From: Polyangiaceae bacterium
Lineage (GTDB): Bacteria > Myxococcota_A > Polyangia > Polyangiales > Polyangiaceae
Reading direction: 5' to 3'
Assembly (NCBI GenBank): GCA_013214025.1
Contig: JABSRN010000150.1
Span: 1-33,971 of the forward strand
DNA: 33,971 nt
Position numbers and translations under genes: made by a program. Each line of letters begins with the position of its first letter. Positions within the stretch are counted from its first letter, which is position 1. Shown piece after piece: positions 14,039-32,219 of this stretch. The notes under the pieces were generated by a model. It did not search any database. It was not told where the DNA came from and was given only the letters and a program-made list of their open reading frames with translations.

Positions 14039-14836
14039 ATGTCTTATCGAAGCCTAGTCCTTGCCACCGCCATCGCCTGCGGAGCTCTCACTCTCACGCC
14101 GCTTTCTGCCAAAGAAGCCCTCGATATAGAGGCCATGGAAAGCGCGCTGCGCTCCCAGGATCAGGAAGCGGTGCTCAAGGCACTGAAGACGATCCGAAAA
14201 TCGAAGGAGCCGAAAGCGGCCCCGCTACTCGATAGTCTGCTCAACCGCGGGGGCAGCGCTCCTGTTCTCAAGGCGGCACTCAAAGCTGCGGGCAAACTCG
14301 GCCAGCGCTCCTCGACCCACGCGGTCGGCCCCTACGCCCGTCACCGCATGCCGGAAATCCGGCGCGCCGCAGTTCAAGCTCTGATCCGAACGGGCGGCCC
14401 CGAAGCTGTTCAAATTCTTCAGCTCGCCCTGCGAAGCAACGACGGCCGGGTCCGCGGTATCGCCGCCACCGGCCTCGGCAGTTTGGCGGCCCACGAGTCC
14501 ATCGACGACTTGATGACTGCCTTCGATCACGGGGTAGCCGAAGCAGCGGCCGCCATCGGACAACTTTGTCTCCCGGAGGAGTGCGAGGACTTCGCCGAGA
14601 GGGTGGGCCAGGCGCACTTCGACGTGATGACCGGCGGCTTTGATCAAATTCTGTTTCGTCCCACCAAAGAGATGCCGGACGCTCAGAAATTGCGAATCAT
14701 CGGCCGAGTCCGCGAACTGGGTACCAGTGAGGCAGCCGCCTTTCTCGGCGACGTGCTGGAACGATGGCCTTCGGATTGGAGCAAGAAGGTGAAACAAGCC
14801 CTGCAGTCCGCAACCAAAGCCACAGGAGGTTCCTGA
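14039..14836 (+). CDS. Exported HEAT-repeat protein
   Basis: The 265-aa protein starts at ATG 14039, with GGAGAG ~11 nt upstream. Residues 1-24 are a Sec-type signal peptide (cleavage near LSA-KE). The remainder is a solenoid of paired helices: repeated units such as APVLKAALKAAGKLG, PEIRRAAVQALIRTG and GRVRGIAATGLGSLAA match the HEAT/PBS-lyase repeat pattern and suggest a periplasmic protein-binding scaffold. The stop TGA overlaps the ATG of the following gene (TGATG), indicating translational coupling and joint function with the propeller protein. No catalytic motif is seen. Specific function unknown. Confidence 0.82.
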   Translation: MSYRSLVLATAIACGALTLTPLSAKEALDIEAMESALRSQDQEAVLKALKTIRKSKEPKAAPLLDSLLNRGGSAPVLKAALKAAGKLGQRSSTHAVGPYARHRMPEIRRAAVQALIRTGGPEAVQILQLALRSNDGRVRGIAATGLGSLAAHESIDDLMTAFDHGVAEAAAAIGQLCLPEECEDFAERVGQAHFDVMTGGFDQILFRPTKEMPDAQKLRIIGRVRELGTSEAAAFLGDVLERWPSDWSKKVKQALQSATKATGGS

Positions 14837-16596
14837 TGAAGAATCTAGCCCGACGTCTCACCACCTGCGCCGCCCTCAGCTTTGCCATCGCCTGTGGGGG
14901 CAACTCAGCTTTCGGCGACAAGGCCTTCTCGCAGAATTGGCAGAACGATGGCGGTGAATCCATCGCCGCCGTCTACGAACGAGTTCAACACGCCAGCATG
15001 CCCACCGGTACGGCCATAGCCTTGGGCATAACCAAGTCCGAGCTAACCGGACTCATGCTCAATGGCAAGGGCAAGTGGAAGTACACGGGCCCCGTGGACG
15101 AGCGCCCGGTCATCACTGGCGATGTGGTCGTCACAGTCGGCGGCGGCCAACTCACCGCACTCGACGCCAAAAGCGGGCAGCCGCTCTGGAAGCTCCCGGC
15201 CCCGAAGGGGCAGCTGCTGGGCGCCGGCGACGACGGCTCCCTCACTGCGATGAGCTTCACCATGGGCGCCGGCCAGGGCAGCCAAATCCTAGTGGTCGAT
15301 CGCGGCGGTAGCATCGTGCAAAAAATGGACGTCGAACCGCGCGTCGGCACTCCCGCTCTCCTCGGCGGCGTGCTGTTCGTGCCCTGGAGTGCCCAGTACG
15401 TCACCGCCATCGATGTCGAGTCCGGCAAAGAGATCGGACGCATGCTTGTGCGCTCTCAGGTAAGCCACGCGCTGAACATTGGCGGTAGCCTGTATCTCGG
15501 CGGGCGCGGTCTGTTGCGCTTCGACCAGAGGGCATCCAAAGCCTCCGAACACTTGGGGTCTTCGGTTCTGTTGCCTGAAAGGGAACTACCCGGCAAGCCC
15601 ATGTGGCTCCACGATGGCTCGATGGCTCAGACCGAACTGGCCACCGCCAAAGACAAGATCCGACTCTACGCCCGTCCAGCCTCTACGGAATCCGGCATTT
15701 CCATTGAGGGCAACCGCTACATGGCCACCTACTTTCGAGTCGTGTTGGGCATGAGCGCGGTAGACGGCGCCGTTGCGTGGGCGAAAACGACGGAGATGGA
15801 CGTGCTCGGCGGGGACGCCGCGTCCGGCGGCTTTGTCATTTGCGACGTCGGCGGCGGTGTGCGCGTGCTCGAAGGAAAACGCGGCGGAGAAACTCTCAAG
15901 CTCAACATAGGCCACGACATTGACGCCTGTATCGTGCAAGCCGGCGATCTGCGCATCCAAGGTGGCGGCGACACTGGACCGCTGTCACAGCAAATGGAAA
16001 ACGCCATCTTGCTCGAGGCATCCCAAATGGTCACTATGCAGCGCTTCTTGCTGCGCGAACTGGCAACCCGGGAGGATCCTGAAGTCACCAAGACTTTGAT
16101 TCGACTGGCAAGCAGCCCCCGCACGCCTCCCATGCTGCGCGACGATGCCAGCGGTTTGCTCGCAGCGCGCCGGCACGGTGCAGAGCACATGTTGGCAGCG
16201 CTGGAGTCACGATATGATTACCTCGAAGGTGTCACTCGCATTCCACCGGTAGGCGCCCTCGCCGACGCACTGGCGGCTATGAAAGAGTACAAGGCCGCGT
16301 CCTTGCTTGCCGAACACCTCGGGGATCCAGCCACCCCCATCAAGGATGTCCTGCGGGCAGCCCGAGCGCTCATCAAGCTTGGCAGCTCGGAAGAGTACCC
16401 GGCGCTGCAGCTGTTCTTTTCGATACATCGCGGGACGGCCTCCGATGAAGACTCCGTCGAGGCGGTTATCGCAGCGGCCCAAGCAATGGCGAAGATCAAC
16501 CCGGCGCTCTCCGGTCCCGTATTAAAGGCGGCAGCCAAAGACTCCCAGACGGTCGCCGGCGTGAAGAACGGCATCGCCTCCCTAACGGGCGGCTGA
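14836..16596 (+). CDS. Exported PQQ-type beta-propeller protein with C-terminal helical repeats
   Basis: The start is ATG 14836, not an upstream in-frame codon, because AGGAGG sits 6 nt before it and the stop of the previous gene overlaps it; 586 aa. The N-terminus is a signal sequence, and FAIAC at its end could serve as a non-canonical lipobox. Residues ~50-390 hold PQQ/BamB-like blades (for example DVVVTVGGGQLTALDAKSGQPLWKL). Residues ~400-586 are alpha-helical HEAT-like units (ATREDPEVTKTLIRLASSP, AARALIKLGSSEEYPALQL). The architecture implies a periplasmic or outer-membrane scaffold, partner of the HEAT protein encoded just before. BamB itself is shorter and lacks the helical tail, so this is not assigned as BamB. 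Confidence 0.8.
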   Translation: MKNLARRLTTCAALSFAIACGGNSAFGDKAFSQNWQNDGGESIAAVYERVQHASMPTGTAIALGITKSELTGLMLNGKGKWKYTGPVDERPVITGDVVVTVGGGQLTALDAKSGQPLWKLPAPKGQLLGAGDDGSLTAMSFTMGAGQGSQILVVDRGGSIVQKMDVEPRVGTPALLGGVLFVPWSAQYVTAIDVESGKEIGRMLVRSQVSHALNIGGSLYLGGRGLLRFDQRASKASEHLGSSVLLPERELPGKPMWLHDGSMAQTELATAKDKIRLYARPASTESGISIEGNRYMATYFRVVLGMSAVDGAVAWAKTTEMDVLGGDAASGGFVICDVGGGVRVLEGKRGGETLKLNIGHDIDACIVQAGDLRIQGGGDTGPLSQQMENAILLEASQMVTMQRFLLRELATREDPEVTKTLIRLASSPRTPPMLRDDASGLLAARRHGAEHMLAALESRYDYLEGVTRIPPVGALADALAAMKEYKAASLLAEHLGDPATPIKDVLRAARALIKLGSSEEYPALQLFFSIHRGTASDEDSVEAVIAAAQAMAKINPALSGPVLKAAAKDSQTVAGVKNGIASLTGG

Positions 16597-17105: not shown

Positions 17106-17741
17106 ATGCAAGCTGCTCTCACCCTCGGACAACGAATCCCTCTGGCCTTCCGACATTTTTTTCGCGTCCTTTTCGACGGGCAGTTCGCTGCGTCCGCGGG
17201 AGCCGAATGCCGCAGCCTGCCGCCGGCCATTACTGTTGGCGATGTCACACTGACCAGCACACCCGAGACCGCTGACTCGCCCCATCCGCCATCAAGCACA
17301 CTGGGGGAATCGACGCTAATGAGCCCCAGCGGCCAGAACGAACCGCACGACAAGTCCAGCGAACGGGAGCGGGGCGCGCTGATGTTATTGAGCCTCCTCC
17401 AGCAAGACGGGCGCTTGATCGATTTTCTCCAACAAGACGTCGAAGGTCACTCGGATGGCGATCTCGCCGCAGCGGCACGAGTCGTGCACGCCGGATGCCG
17501 CAAGACGCTCAACGCGAGAACACAGATCGCGCCGTTGCTCAGCGAGCCCGAGGGAAGCCCCGTGACCGTGCCCGCCGGCTACGGCTCCCAGAGCTATAAG
17601 CTCAGTGGCAACATCAGCGGACCCGCGCCTTATTCGGGCACTCTAGAACACCCAGGGTGGCGCTCCAGCGGCCTGCAGCTGCCCATCCCGGCGCCGGACC
17701 ACGACGCCGAGATCCTAGCCCCCGCCGAGGTGCTGCTGTGA
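17106..17741 (+). CDS. DUF2760 domain-containing protein
   Basis: The 211-aa protein starts at ATG 17106. The N-terminus (LAFRHFFRVLFDGQFAA) and the C-terminal half (ALMLLSLLQQDGRLIDFLQQD, AAARVVHAGCRKTL, VTVPAGYGSQSYKLSGNI, GTLEHPGWRSSGLQLP) are the hallmarks of DUF2760. A ~50-residue low-complexity linker (Thr/Ser/Pro-rich) separates the two. There is no signal peptide, so it is cytosolic or membrane-peripheral. Genes of this family are typically found directly before Hsp70-like genes, as here: the stop overlaps the GTG of the next gene. The role is not established; a dedicated co-chaperone or adaptor for the two Hsp70-like proteins is the natural inference. Confidence 0.9.
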   Translation: MQAALTLGQRIPLAFRHFFRVLFDGQFAASAGAECRSLPPAITVGDVTLTSTPETADSPHPPSSTLGESTLMSPSGQNEPHDKSSERERGALMLLSLLQQDGRLIDFLQQDVEGHSDGDLAAAARVVHAGCRKTLNARTQIAPLLSEPEGSPVTVPAGYGSQSYKLSGNISGPAPYSGTLEHPGWRSSGLQLPIPAPDHDAEILAPAEVLL

Positions 17742-19516
17742 GCGCGCCCTTCGTCGTTGGCATCGATCTCGGCACCACTCACACGGCCATCGCCCAATGC
17801 TTGGTCGAACAAGGCGCTGTCGAAAACTCCTCTCCCCTACAACTGGAGCCCGTGAGCCAACTCAGCGGCCCTTCCAGACTGGAAAGTCTGCCCTTACTGC
17901 CTTCGTTCTTGTACTTCGCAGCGGATGGGGAGCAGGCTCTCGCCCTGCCCTGGGACGATAGTCGCGATTTCGCCGTCGGAAGCTGGGCGCGAGATCACGG
18001 GGCCTCGACTCCAGGACGCGTCATCTCCAGCGCCAAAAGCTGGCTCTCCCACTCTGGAGTCGACCGACGAGCGGAGCTCTTGCCCCCCCACGGCGCCCCC
18101 GACATCGAGAAGATCAGCCCAGTCGAAGCTTCGTTTCGTTATCTCGATCATCTCGCCGAATCCTGGTCCCAGGACCACGAAGAGGCACTCGGAGACCAAG
18201 AAGTCATCCTCACGGTACCGGCATCCTTCGATGCCGGCGCTCGCGATCTCACGGTGGAAGCCGCCTACGCCGCAGGCTTCGAGAATGTGTTCTTGCTGGA
18301 GGAGCCCCAGGCGGCTCTCTACGCATGGTTGGAAGCATCCGGTGATGCCTGGCGCGAACACTTGAAGGTGGGTGACGTCATTCTCGTCATCGACATTGGC
18401 GGCGGTACCACCGACTTTTCCGCAATTTCTGTTCAAGACAATGACGGCGATCTCGGATTCTCAAGGATCGCCGTGGGCGATCACATCTTGCTCGGCGGCG
18501 ACAATATCGACTTGGCGCTGGCCCACACCATCAAACAGAAACTCACAGGCTTTAGGCACTGTGTCGACAACGCGGCCTTGCAGTCGCTGACTCATGCCTG
18601 CCGAGCCGCCAAAGAACGCCTGCTGAGCGAGAACCGTCCGGAGCAGGTACCCGTGGCCCTCGCCCAACGCGGCGCCAAGCTTCTGGGCGGCGTGGTGCAA
18701 ACTGACCTGCGCGCCGAGGAAGTGGACAACTTGGTACTCAATGGCTTCTTCCCCGAAGTGACTCTCGACGATCGTCCGCGATCGCGCGCCCGCGGCGCAC
18801 TGACGCAAATCGGCCTGCCCTACGCGAGCGACCCTGCGATCAGCAAACACCTCGTTCAGTTTCTGCATCAGCACGGTCCGGACGGGCAAGCCCTCACCCC
18901 CACCCGCGTGCTGTTCAACGGGGGCGTACTCAAGTCCACCGCGATCCGCGAGCGACTGCTCCAGATGTTAGGCGGCTGGTTCCCCACCACCACTATCAGC
19001 GAACTGCCCAGTACCGATCTCGACGGAGCGGTCGCCCGGGGCGCTTGTTATTACGGTCAAGTCCGCCGAGGTCGGGGCATCCGTATCCGGGGGGGCACCG
19101 GTCGCGCCTACTACGTCGGCGTAGAAAGCCCCGCCCCGGCCATTCCCGGAATCGAGCCCCCCGTCAGCGCGCTTTGCGTCGCACCCCTCGGGATGGAAGA
19201 GGGCAGCGAAGTGGCACTACCCGACACCGAGCTCGGACTGATCGTTGGGGAGGCGGTTCAGTTCCGTTTCTTCAGCAGCACAACTCGCACAGAGCCCGCC
19301 GGCACCCTCCACGAATCCGTCGACTCGACGGATCTGGTAGAGCTCGCCCCCATCGAAATCACTCTAACGGCCGACGGCCGAAGCGAAGGCGACGTCGTAG
19401 CGATACATCTCGAAGCCTCCATCACCGCAGTCGGCACCCTCTTGTTGGAGGCAGTACCCACCACCCCACTGCAGCCCGACGAGCGCTGGAAAATCGAACT
19501 CTCCGTCCGAGGCTAA
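17738..19516 (+). CDS. Hsp70-like ATPase A (no canonical substrate-binding lid)
   Basis: The start is GTG 17738, overlapping the preceding TGA (GTGA); 592 aa. The nucleotide-binding domain shows phosphate-1 motif GIDLGTTHT (8-16), VILTVPASFD, phosphate-2 motif VIDIGGGTTDF (~216-226) and an adenosine-side NGGVLKS in place of the usual GGSxRIP (~393). The NBD ends near residue 430. The remaining ~160 residues are a small beta-rich region with no recognisable DnaK peptide-binding sandwich, helical lid or EEVD-like tail. It should therefore bind and hydrolyse ATP but contact clients or partners differently from DnaK. Internal gene order DUF2760-A-B, with overlaps and a 5-bp gap, implies one operon. 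It is neither DnaK nor HscA. Confidence 0.93.
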   Translation: MSAPFVVGIDLGTTHTAIAQCLVEQGAVENSSPLQLEPVSQLSGPSRLESLPLLPSFLYFAADGEQALALPWDDSRDFAVGSWARDHGASTPGRVISSAKSWLSHSGVDRRAELLPPHGAPDIEKISPVEASFRYLDHLAESWSQDHEEALGDQEVILTVPASFDAGARDLTVEAAYAAGFENVFLLEEPQAALYAWLEASGDAWREHLKVGDVILVIDIGGGTTDFSAISVQDNDGDLGFSRIAVGDHILLGGDNIDLALAHTIKQKLTGFRHCVDNAALQSLTHACRAAKERLLSENRPEQVPVALAQRGAKLLGGVVQTDLRAEEVDNLVLNGFFPEVTLDDRPRSRARGALTQIGLPYASDPAISKHLVQFLHQHGPDGQALTPTRVLFNGGVLKSTAIRERLLQMLGGWFPTTTISELPSTDLDGAVARGACYYGQVRRGRGIRIRGGTGRAYYVGVESPAPAIPGIEPPVSALCVAPLGMEEGSEVALPDTELGLIVGEAVQFRFFSSTTRTEPAGTLHESVDSTDLVELAPIEITLTADGRSEGDVVAIHLEASITAVGTLLLEAVPTTPLQPDERWKIELSVRG

Positions 19517-19521
19517 ATCTC

Positions 19522-22269
19522 ATGAAGCCATTGGCCAATCCATCGCTCATGTTGTGCGGCATCGATCTCGGCACCACGCATTCTACGCTAGCCTACGCTC
19601 CCTCCAGCGATCCCCAAGCTCCGGTACTCGTATTCGAAGTCGAACAAGCGGTATCGGGCACTCAGCGCGCCAGCTCCGATTCTCTCCCCTCGTGTCTGTA
19701 CGCACCCCTCGAAGAAGAGCGCTCCAAGTCCCAGGACTGGGTCGTCGGCAAGTGGGCCCAATCGAGGATCCCCGAGTTACCCGGACGTTGCATCAGCTCC
19801 GCCAAAAGCTGGCTCAGTCACGCCCGGGTCGACCGACACAGCCAAATTCTACCGTGGGGCGCGGACGGCAGTACGCCCCAACTGAGCCCGGTGGAGGCTA
19901 GCTCAAGGATCCTCCGCGTATTTCGAGACTGCTGGAACGAACGCTTTCCGGACGCCCCCCTAGAAAAACAGATGGTCATTCTGACCGTGCCGGCGTCCTT
20001 TGATCAAGTCGCCCGTCGACTCACCTTAGAAGCGGCACACACAGCCGGCCTCACCGTCCGACTACTGGAGGAGCCGCAGGCGGCCTTCTATGACTACTGG
20101 GCAAACCCTGACTGCCCGCTGCACGACTCAATCAACGAGCAAGCAACGCAGATCTTAGTTTGCGATATCGGCGGGGGCACCTCGGATTTTACCCTGATTG
20201 AAGCCTCACGCTCCAGTGACGGCAGTCTGCTGCTCCATCGGAGCGCCGTGGGCAAACACTTGCTCCTGGGAGGCGACAATATGGATCTCGCCCTCGCACA
20301 CCTCTTGGAGTCGCAGCTGAGCACGGACGGCAAACGCCTCGATCCCACCGCCTTCGCCTCCTTGCAACAGAGCTGCCGCGCCGCCAAAGAACGACTCTTG
20401 CAAACCGACGGCCCAGACGACATCCCGATACAAATCGCCGCCCGCAGCTCCCGCCTCACGGGCTCGATCAAGACAGCCACGTTGACTCGCCAACAGGTGC
20501 ACGATCTTGTGCTGAATGGTTTTTTTCCGTTCGTCACCCGGGACGCCGCTCCACGCCCCACACGGGCCGGCCTCACTGGCTTCGGTCTGCCCTATGAACG
20601 CGATCCTGCCATCACCCAACACATTGCTCGGTTCCTGCAGACCCACAAGCAGTCAACAAATCCGGATCTCCTATTGGGTTGCGGCGGGGTCTTCGGATCC
20701 AGCCAAATCGCCGAACGCCTGACGGCTTGTCTCTCCCAGTGGTCAGACAAAACTCAGGCCTTCGACTACGTGCCTGATACTCGCCACAGTGTGGCGCGGG
20801 GGGCGGTATTTTTCGCCCGAGCGCTGCTCGGACACGGCGTCCGCATCGGCGGCGGTTCGCCCCGGGGCTACTATGTCGGCGTCGATGACAAACATCGCCA
20901 GGCCGTATGCCTCTTGCCTCGGGGGGCCACCGAGGGCGAAGAACACACCGCGATGCTCCCTGGACTCCGCCTCGTATTAGGTCGAGCGGCCCGATTCGAT
21001 CTGTATACAAGCGAGACCGAGCTTCATGCCCCAGGGGCTGTCGTCGACATCGACGGCGAGAAATATTCGCAGCTGCCACCGGTCACCACCCGATTCGACT
21101 CCACCGACAAGCAACAATCCGAACTCCCCGTGGCTCTCGGAGGCCTATTGAGCGAAGTGGGAACCCTCGAACTGGCGGCGGTAGAGCTGCGCCAAAGAGT
21201 CGCCAGCGGCAAACGTTTCTCCCTTGAATTTGAGCTACGGACTACCTCAGATGCACCCGCTGACGCCGCCAGCGACAAGAACGCTCACTCCCCCCCTCGT
21301 CCACCCCAGCTCTCAGTGGGGCGTGCGGGACAGCGACTGTATCAGGCGACGGAATTGATCCGAGATGCCTTCGACGACGCACGCAGTCCAACGCCCCGCC
21401 GCGCCAAAGACTTGATGCGCGGCCTAGAGAAACTGCTCGGGGAGCGTCGAGTCTGGACTACCGAACTGTGCCGCGCGCTGTACGACGAGCTGCTCAACTA
21501 CCCCAACGTGCGCCGTCGCAGCGAAGCCCACGAACGAGCCTTTTGGATGCTGGCGGGCTATTCGCTACGGCCCGGCGTCGGCTTTCCTGGGGACTCTAAA
21601 CGCATCGCTCGGCTGGTGCCGCTCTTTGGACCAGGCCCGCATTTCGGGGAAACTCGCAACTGGCAGCAATTTTGGATTGCCTGGCGACGCGTGTGCGCGG
21701 GGCTAGGTGAAAAGATGCAAGTCCAGATCCGGAATTCCATCGACCCCTTCCTGGCGCCCGCCGAAGCCAAGCTCAAGAGACGCAAAGGCTTCAAACCCCA
21801 GGCCAAGGAAGAAATGTTGTTCCTCGCCAGCACCCTAGAAAACGTACCGGTGGCCCAACGAAGCCAACTGGGGGAATGGTTGCTGGAGGATACCTGGACC
21901 AACCGAGATCCCCGCTTGTGGTCAGCGATCGGACGGCTAGGAGCCCGACTCCCAGCCTACGGCAGCGCTCATTATGTATTGCCCACGCGGCTCGCCGAAG
22001 AATGGTTGAAGCACGCCCTACAGGAAAAGTGGGACGAGGCCAGTACGGCTCAGGCAGCGGCGGTCAGCCTGGGGCGACGCACCGGCGACCGTAGCCGGGA
22101 CGTCTCCGATTCTGCCCGGACCGAGCTGCTCACGCGCTTGGAGGGCGCTGGAGCCGATCCAGAGCAGATCCGCCGCATCAACGAGGTGGTCGAACCGGAG
22201 GCCAGCGATCGCGCGGCCTTCCTAGGTGAGGAGCTGCCAGCTGGACTGCAATGGTCGGGTTCCGAATGA
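19522..22269 (+). CDS. Hsp70-like ATPase B with long helical C-terminal extension (DUF3731-like)
   Basis: The start is ATG 19522, five bases after the stop of ATPase A; 915 aa. An upstream in-frame region only shadows gene A. The NBD has GIDLGTTHST (13-22), VILTVPASFDQVARRLTLEA, CDIGGGTSDF (~214-223) and GCGGVFGSS at the adenosine site. A beta region (~470-600) parallels the C-terminus of A. After a Pro-rich linker (~600) comes a ~310-residue helix-rich extension (RAKDLMRGLEKLLGERRVW, HERAFWMLAGYSLRPGVGFPGD, RNWQQFWIAWRRVCAGL), which I recall as DUF3731 in large Hsp70-family proteins. A and B are clearly paralogous (matching ISSAKSWLSH, EEPQAA and RAAKERLL segments) and probably form a hetero-complex, which is inference. 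Confidence 0.92.
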   Translation: MKPLANPSLMLCGIDLGTTHSTLAYAPSSDPQAPVLVFEVEQAVSGTQRASSDSLPSCLYAPLEEERSKSQDWVVGKWAQSRIPELPGRCISSAKSWLSHARVDRHSQILPWGADGSTPQLSPVEASSRILRVFRDCWNERFPDAPLEKQMVILTVPASFDQVARRLTLEAAHTAGLTVRLLEEPQAAFYDYWANPDCPLHDSINEQATQILVCDIGGGTSDFTLIEASRSSDGSLLLHRSAVGKHLLLGGDNMDLALAHLLESQLSTDGKRLDPTAFASLQQSCRAAKERLLQTDGPDDIPIQIAARSSRLTGSIKTATLTRQQVHDLVLNGFFPFVTRDAAPRPTRAGLTGFGLPYERDPAITQHIARFLQTHKQSTNPDLLLGCGGVFGSSQIAERLTACLSQWSDKTQAFDYVPDTRHSVARGAVFFARALLGHGVRIGGGSPRGYYVGVDDKHRQAVCLLPRGATEGEEHTAMLPGLRLVLGRAARFDLYTSETELHAPGAVVDIDGEKYSQLPPVTTRFDSTDKQQSELPVALGGLLSEVGTLELAAVELRQRVASGKRFSLEFELRTTSDAPADAASDKNAHSPPRPPQLSVGRAGQRLYQATELIRDAFDDARSPTPRRAKDLMRGLEKLLGERRVWTTELCRALYDELLNYPNVRRRSEAHERAFWMLAGYSLRPGVGFPGDSKRIARLVPLFGPGPHFGETRNWQQFWIAWRRVCAGLGEKMQVQIRNSIDPFLAPAEAKLKRRKGFKPQAKEEMLFLASTLENVPVAQRSQLGEWLLEDTWTNRDPRLWSAIGRLGARLPAYGSAHYVLPTRLAEEWLKHALQEKWDEASTAQAAAVSLGRRTGDRSRDVSDSARTELLTRLEGAGADPEQIRRINEVVEPEASDRAAFLGEELPAGLQWSGSE

Positions 22270-30590: not shown

Positions 30591-32219
<1,629 letters not shown>

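Follow-up and report, generated by a model that had tools for sequence, protein, structure and literature searches.

Hsp70 proteins are usually treated as J-protein-dependent machines, so how would two divergent Hsp70-like ATPases encoded beside a protein of another family be driven, and what do the three proteins make together? This question is raised by contig JABSRN010000150.1 of a Polyangiaceae bacterium (assembly GCA_013214025.1), which was analysed over positions 1 to 33,971 of the forward strand and is called the window below. Three plus-strand genes between 17106 and 22269 encode a DUF2760 protein and two Hsp70-like ATPases, A and B. Based on comparative genomics, profile comparison and structure prediction, we propose that the locus may encode one obligate three-component chaperone-type machine, made of two Hsp70s and a non-J DUF2760 adaptor, and we give this reading a probability of roughly 0.47, slightly under even odds.

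The DUF2760 gene (17106..17741, +) encodes 211 residues, of which 89-209 match Pfam family PF10816 (E 1.1e-40; 138.7 bits against a curated cut-off of 25). A (17738..19516, +; GTG start) is an Hsp70-like ATPase of 592 residues without a lid, and B (19522..22269, +; ATG start) is one of 915 residues with a C-terminal solenoid. At the level of the nucleotide-binding domain (NBD) both belong to HSP70 (PF00012; cut-off 20.6 bits), A by a partial match of 58.9 bits (E 3.8e-16) and B by 62.2 bits (E 3.8e-17). B also matches DUF3731 (PF12531) over residues 667-910 with 234.6 bits (cut-off 25; E 2e-69), a family for which the Pfam text reads only 'DNA-K related protein'. A preliminary description of this DNA, made from the sequence alone, had joined the three genes by a 4-bp overlap and a 5-bp gap, read the motifs GIDLGTTH and DIGGGT in both ATPases, called the two paralogues, and saw no DnaJ or GrpE gene in the surroundings. 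All of this is borne out. The DUF2760 stop overlaps the A start at 17738..17741 (+), a -4 spacing also found in homologous pairs, and 19517..19521 (+) separates A from B; both motifs occur in A and in B, which are 41% identical across A 6-588; and the 19 scanned window proteins gave no DnaJ and no GrpE match under the thresholds applied.

The set recurs far beyond this genome. Two phylum draws covered 585 genomes, 187 from the window's phylum (Myxococcota) and 398 from the phylum of a Methylomonas genome, each draw including its centre genome, which was picked because it has the set. DUF2760 and DUF3731 occur together in 58 of the 585 genomes and singly in two. Among the Myxococcota, 32 genomes have DUF3731, 31 have DUF2760 and 31 have both; the corresponding numbers in the second draw are 27, 28 and 27 (Fisher tests, which ignore shared ancestry, give p 1e-34 and 5e-41). 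In each discordant genome the match sits where a contig ends: the B frame begins near the contig start in one (G127), and the contig ends within 84 bases of A in the other (G241). The absent partner gene likely falls in an assembly gap in each. In 31 of the 32 DUF3731 genomes the A-like matches number just two, an A and a B, and these B proteins are 37-47% identical to the window's A; A counterparts in 30 other genomes are 48-63% identical to it. Every one of the 31 DUF2760 genomes in the Myxococcota draw has a single match to that family, while DUF3731 shows an extra fragment in one genome (G144) and is split into two pieces in another (G123). The set is inherited together, mostly with one copy of each gene.

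Gene order was surveyed at 80 loci from Myxococcota, Burkholderiales, Vibrio, Methylococcales and other groups. DUF2760, A and B follow one another on one strand at 64 of these (61, plus three in which a long open reading frame sorts first), and A and B are at most 200 bp apart in 56 of the 64 same-strand pairs. The remaining cases are one cut at a contig end, one divergent, and 14 with B alone in the fetched stretch. For the 15 loci without DUF2760 (the 14 with B alone and the cut one), whole-genome searches find DUF2760 elsewhere in 14, and all 15 such separate places adjoin an A-like gene. DUF2760 adjoins A, within 164 bp, in 35/35 and 65/65 pairs examined, and the -4 spacing recurs in 26/35 and 43/65 homologous pairs; some contigs are in both sets (L104/G071, L107/G036, L139/G107, L160/G182), and those counts overlap. 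In the Myxococcota draw, 12 of 31 genomes have B separated from A by more than 2 kb or placed on a different contig. The partnership outlives the separation of its genes, which argues for a function beyond operon habit. Co-occurrence, copy number and gene order together give strong support to the coupled three-component module of the preliminary description, and both co-occurrence and order recur in distant groups more than expected by chance.

Two arrangements may be recorded here in their own right. In L106, a Polyangiaceae genome, DUF2760-A and B are divergently oriented, and a Methylococcales genome (G206) has two DUF2760 copies with an A-like gene beside each. In a tree of 30 A, 30 B and 14 DnaK sampled sequences, the 30 A sequences form one clade (support 0.67) and the root falls inside B, so the direction of duplication is not fixed by the tree. 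The alignments comprised A1, with 32 of 34 B sequences (L069 and L078, cut by locus ends, were left out); A4, with 96 of 107 prepared sequences; and A5, with 76 of 96 eligible ones. A4 and A5 were trimmed for size and near-duplicates, and plasmid rows L059-L062 were excluded from both.

What do the two ATPases retain of Hsp70? The NBD spans about residues 4-445 in A (17747..19072, +; hhalign to DnaK E 5.9e-26 over A 5-445) and 10-438 in B (19549..20835, +; E 3.5e-28 over B 10-438). Residues are numbered below by the E. coli DnaK scheme, whose V142-F146 and N170-T173 loops agree with those of PMC12406271. In the alignment, D8, T11, K70, P143, F146, E171, D194, T199 and D201 are kept in 100/100 A and 113/113 B sequences, and R151 in 98 of 100 A and 112 of 113 B. 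N170 is replaced by E in all 100 A and all 113 B, T173 by Q in all 100 A and in 105 of the 113 B, and R167 mostly by T in A (75/100). The same loop reads N-E-P-T in 62 of 63 DnaK sequences, the last being unmatched by the pattern. According to PMC12406271, P143 and R151 relay the ATP signal and linker residue D393 contacts N170 and T173; PMC4022485 counts R151, R167, N170 and T173 among the residues tied to DnaJ binding or stimulation. No VLLLD interdomain linker aligns in A or B, the DnaK alignment stopping before the linker. With N170, and in nearly all sequences T173, replaced at the docking site and the canonical linker missing from the alignment, the linker contact is changed on both of its sides, while A and B alike retain those catalytic and proline-switch residues that were tested.

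The region behind the NBD was examined with a model of B 385-915 (predicted local distance difference test, pLDDT, 88.8; predicted template-modelling score, pTM, 0.66; 96 sequences), which places a β domain at about B 449-570, then a disordered linker, then an all-helical C-terminal part. The β domain of B, at about residues 445-574 (20854..21243, +; strands 65-186 of the model), resembles the Hsp70 substrate-binding sandwich. All of the top 38 Foldseek rows carry titles related to Hsp70, and 21 reach E <=0.001; they are led by 7krv_B (E 4.9e-5, probability 1.00), and they include the Hsp110:Hsc70 entry 3c7n through its Hsc70-type chain. The rows do not print aligned ranges, the multi-domain ones stand at a root-mean-square deviation (rmsd) of 7-23, and the end of the NBD in the fragment may favour full-length rows; isolated substrate-binding domains, such as 4wv5_B (E 4.5e-3, template-modelling score 0.50 on its own length, rmsd 5.3), are the better evidence. 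A carries a homologous β domain at about residues 446-592 (19073..19513, +; hhalign against the middle region of B, E 2.1e-42) and ends straight after it. The earlier statement that neither ATPase shows a peptide-binding sandwich is contradicted for B at the fold level: by the model, B probably holds a divergent Hsp70-type substrate-binding β-sandwich, and A shares the domain by profile.

The solenoid region of B covers about residues 597-915 (21310..22266, +), including the DUF3731 match, and its assignment draws on Pfam, the all-helical model and ARM/HEAT-like rows. The helical part aligns with CAND1 and designed armadillo repeats at a VIA-align Z of 14.6 over 260-263 residues (rmsd 4.6-5.7); a Z under about 13 may mean just the arrangement common in helical repeats, and these rows are moderately informative. 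A sequence search of the PDB with the B 385-915 profile gave one match, at E 0.45, and no credible relative. The helical extension of about 310 residues described earlier thus stands as a predicted ARM/HEAT-like solenoid, but it is not nameless, being Pfam family PF12531. The helical lid (SBDα) is absent from A, and the C-terminal region of B compares with DnaK SBDα only at E 0.26. Compared with DnaK, A and B share the NBD with its tested catalytic residues and proline switch, followed by a putative sandwich similar to SBDβ (B by model, A by homology to B). They differ in having no aligned canonical linker, a docking loop that carries N170E and, in most sequences, T173Q, and no helical lid, A stopping after the sandwich and B carrying the solenoid. 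The claimed absence of the DnaK-type lid holds, and the canonical linker is absent as well.

The third protein has a plausible adaptor layout. Its model (pLDDT 86.1, pTM 0.58) begins with N-terminal helices in residues 1-37 (17106..17216, +; helices 7-23 and 25-37), continues with a low-confidence linker in residues 38-82 (17217..17351, +; pLDDT 50-57 for residues 41-80), and ends with a folded domain of a helical hairpin and strands in residues 83-211 (17352..17738, +; pLDDT mostly >90, with 16 invariant columns in 76 sequences). The stretch from helix to domain in 99 DUF2760 orthologues has a median of 45 residues and is 22% proline. A strong transmembrane N-terminal helix (19-residue hydrophobicity mean at least 2.0) is present in 17 of the 99, a count that includes near-duplicates and one uncertain start (L060). 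Going by the titles of their records, gammaproteobacteria account for 16 of these 17. Lysine and arginine average 0.35 before and 3.2 after these helices and are richer after the helix in 16 of 17, which suggests that the DUF2760 domain lies in the cytoplasm. No J-domain was found in DUF2760, PF10816 being the only family listed at E up to 1; the PDB sequence search with its profile gave 0 matches, and a VIA fold search with its model found none of 537 chains at Z >=5. A likeness to the Bag2 BNB domain (Z near 4.8) was rejected, as it is indistinguishable from that to unrelated helical hairpins. This layout, in which helices at the N terminus (transmembrane ones in certain lineages) are connected through a loose linker to a small folded domain, makes an adaptor role of DUF2760 plausible; that the window's own protein binds membranes is a guess.

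How would such a machine work? In our proposal, A would be a lidless Hsp70 of ATPase and β-sandwich, B an Hsp70 with an ARM/HEAT-like solenoid in place of the lid, and DUF2760 a non-J adaptor, tethering the A-B pair and probably regulating it. The DUF2760 proteins of several gammaproteobacteria look as if they were anchored in the inner membrane, the folded domain facing the cytoplasm. ATP binding and hydrolysis would open and close the β-sandwich on a client, with stimulation coming from the A-B pair and DUF2760 rather than from a J-protein. The solenoid of B would recruit a client or partner, and the machine may aid recovery from stress. Judged by its residues, the A/B machine would probably be J-independent.

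Several points weigh against this proposal. The A-B heteromer, its interaction with DUF2760, the ATPase activity and the clients are putative, and common ancestry inflates the co-occurrence of DUF2760 and DUF3731. The likeness to the substrate-binding domain comes from one predicted model of B, and most rows, in which several domains are aligned, have the large rmsd given above. Sequence profiles show no link between the β domain and DnaK (hhalign E 0.03-0.31), also when 63 DnaK sequences were used. Out of 100 column shuffles, 1 and 55 did as well as the real comparison, 46 and 63 in global mode, and for B a reversed control outscored it. Tying the β domain to DnaK by sequence profile therefore failed, the shuffled and reversed controls having done as well for B. 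The N-terminal helix of the window's own DUF2760 is weakly hydrophobic (0.76). In addition, five of 113 B sequences keep T173 and 75 of 113 keep R167. Finally, the missing J gene is not special. The module's contig has no PF00226 J-domain match, though the genome has 14 (GrpE was not searched genome-wide), and these could act in trans on A and B; a J-domain match lies within 1.5 kb or in the same frame on only four of ten Hsp70-bearing contigs (C140, C122, C119 and C73), one of the matches being under the cut-off.

The alternatives are taken in falling order of probability. The first is a bolder form of the proposal, an obligate, J-protein-free heterodimer in which B is an Hsp110-like exchange and client-recruiting partner acting through its solenoid and DUF2760 a tethered stimulator in place of the J-protein. 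Hsp110/Sse1 and Hsp70 are likewise two Hsp70 paralogues, one of them extended, that work as a pair, and A and B are presumed to pair in the same way; the extension of B, in contrast, is an ARM/HEAT-like solenoid, and its exchange role is putative. If true, this would break the rule that Hsp70s need a J-domain, and we regard it as unlikely.

An ordinary explanation of the same ATPases is doubtful as well. A and B would here be accessory Hsp70s served by the J-proteins and GrpE of the housekeeping system, with DUF2760 only a regulator or targeting factor. The 14 J-domain matches come with several canonical DnaK in the genome, of which those on C152 and C129 also lack a J gene within 1.5 kb, and A and B have kept P143 and R151. 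Against this, every A and B has another residue at N170, as do every A and 108 of 113 B at T173, and the canonical linker is missing from the alignment; PMC4022485 names these two positions and R167 among those tied to DnaJ binding or stimulation.

A single-client system, in which A and B would mature or insert DUF2760 as their dedicated client or scaffold, is rather improbable in our estimate. Its known counterpart is HscA with IscU, a specialised Hsp70 with dedicated partner genes. A and B are similarly specialised, and in NCBIfam they score best with HscA models, A at 79.4 bits and B at 88.4, both far below the cut-offs of those models. The strict co-inheritance, the adjacency of DUF2760 to A in 35/35, 65/65 and 15/15 cases examined, and the helix-linker-domain layout of DUF2760 fit such a scheme. 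The locus differs in its two ATPases, and no J-partner or iron-sulphur gene is among the scanned window proteins. Furthermore, the confident and conserved DUF2760 domain would suit a partner surface better than an unfolded client, and a search for a fourth partner found no widely conserved further neighbour among 45 sources (44 loci and the window) or the 80 surveyed loci; a loosely linked one may exist.

Far less probable is that A and B are actin-like, non-chaperone ATPases of cytoskeletal or scaffold assembly. A passes the cut-off of Pfam MreB_Mbl (PF06723; 30.4 vs 27 bits), and the EEPxAA loop resembles that of MreB. Yet the HSP70 scores of both proteins are higher and B, at 20.8 bits, is under the MreB cut-off; by the model, an Hsp70 SBD-like β domain follows the ATPase of B, and the proline-switch residues are kept.

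Four plasmid regions were inspected as well: DUF2760-A-B is complete in three, and the fourth carries DUF2760-A alone. The Bradyrhizobium conjugative plasmid pCC829_3 (L060) carries the whole set, and the Thiodictyon plasmid pTs485 (L062) has DUF2760-A without an adjoining B, amid genes annotated as anti-phage and TIR. These two plasmids would suit an accessory defence or mobile-element module, which is very improbable, given that PADLOC gives a weak match on the ATPase region only, a viral-contig scan with B found nothing, neighbours are otherwise unconserved, and 31 genomes have one A and one B each.

The surroundings of the module contribute further observations. The largest neighbour clusters around the 45 sources are mostly antisense frames of A, B or DUF2760. 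In the 80-locus survey, one cluster extends across 10 group labels (12 loci, including L163 15972-18329) at a median of 3.6 kb and looks FHA-like by eye, and another extends across 8 group labels (14 loci). Five betaproteobacterial groups have a small gene near the module, at a median of 179 bp, that looks phasin-like by eye (L154 6519-7112 and the loci of the four others). In the window, directly upstream of the module, a HEAT-repeat protein overlaps a PQQ-propeller protein with a weak HEAT match (14039-16596, +). A second chaperone family is represented by a Cpn60/TCP-1 protein of 541 residues (30591-32216, -; 253.9 bits, E 3.7e-75), which may be a divergent chaperonin.

Is anything known of these proteins in living cells? 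No paper was found naming DUF2760 or DUF3731 in a search that left supplements and subscription papers outside, and among the papers listed on J-independent or divergent Hsp70s none concerns the set by its title. The earlier statement that the function is not established holds for the set; a probable orthologue of B has a mild published phenotype. MXAN_5323 of Myxococcus xanthus is, in PMC8265645, a 925-residue Hsp70 with an NBD-only domain call that has been deleted. B of Myxococcus eversor also has 925 residues, and two of the 17 Hsp70 matches of that species are short, NBD-only and adjacent to each other, namely B and A. MXAN_5323 is thus likely the B orthologue, a likeness drawn from length and domain call and not from sequence, and PMC8265645 treats it as a lone Hsp70; one paper was found mentioning MXAN_5323 and none mentioning MXAN_5321, 5322, 5324 or 5325. 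The mutant forms fewer spores and recovers more slowly from H2O2, whereas swarming, predation and growth under heat, cold and high osmolarity show no obvious change, and MXAN_5323 failed to rescue an E. coli dnaK mutant (PMC8265645). The sporulation and peroxide defects are common to all five Hsp70 mutants tested there and are therefore not specific to MXAN_5323. The heat transcriptome implies increased MXAN_5323 transcription, while quantitative PCR of six genes including MXAN_5323 showed no obvious increase; its expression rose under H2O2 (PMC8265645).

We take the set to be a novel form of Hsp70 system. A widespread set in which the ATPase switch is kept, the linker-docking loop is replaced and a third protein is supplied would show another way to drive Hsp70. 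Two named families of unknown function, DUF2760 and DUF3731, gain one shared and testable role, and the module offers candidates for the missing partners of MXAN_5323, the Hsp70 for which a Myxococcus xanthus deletion mutant already exists.

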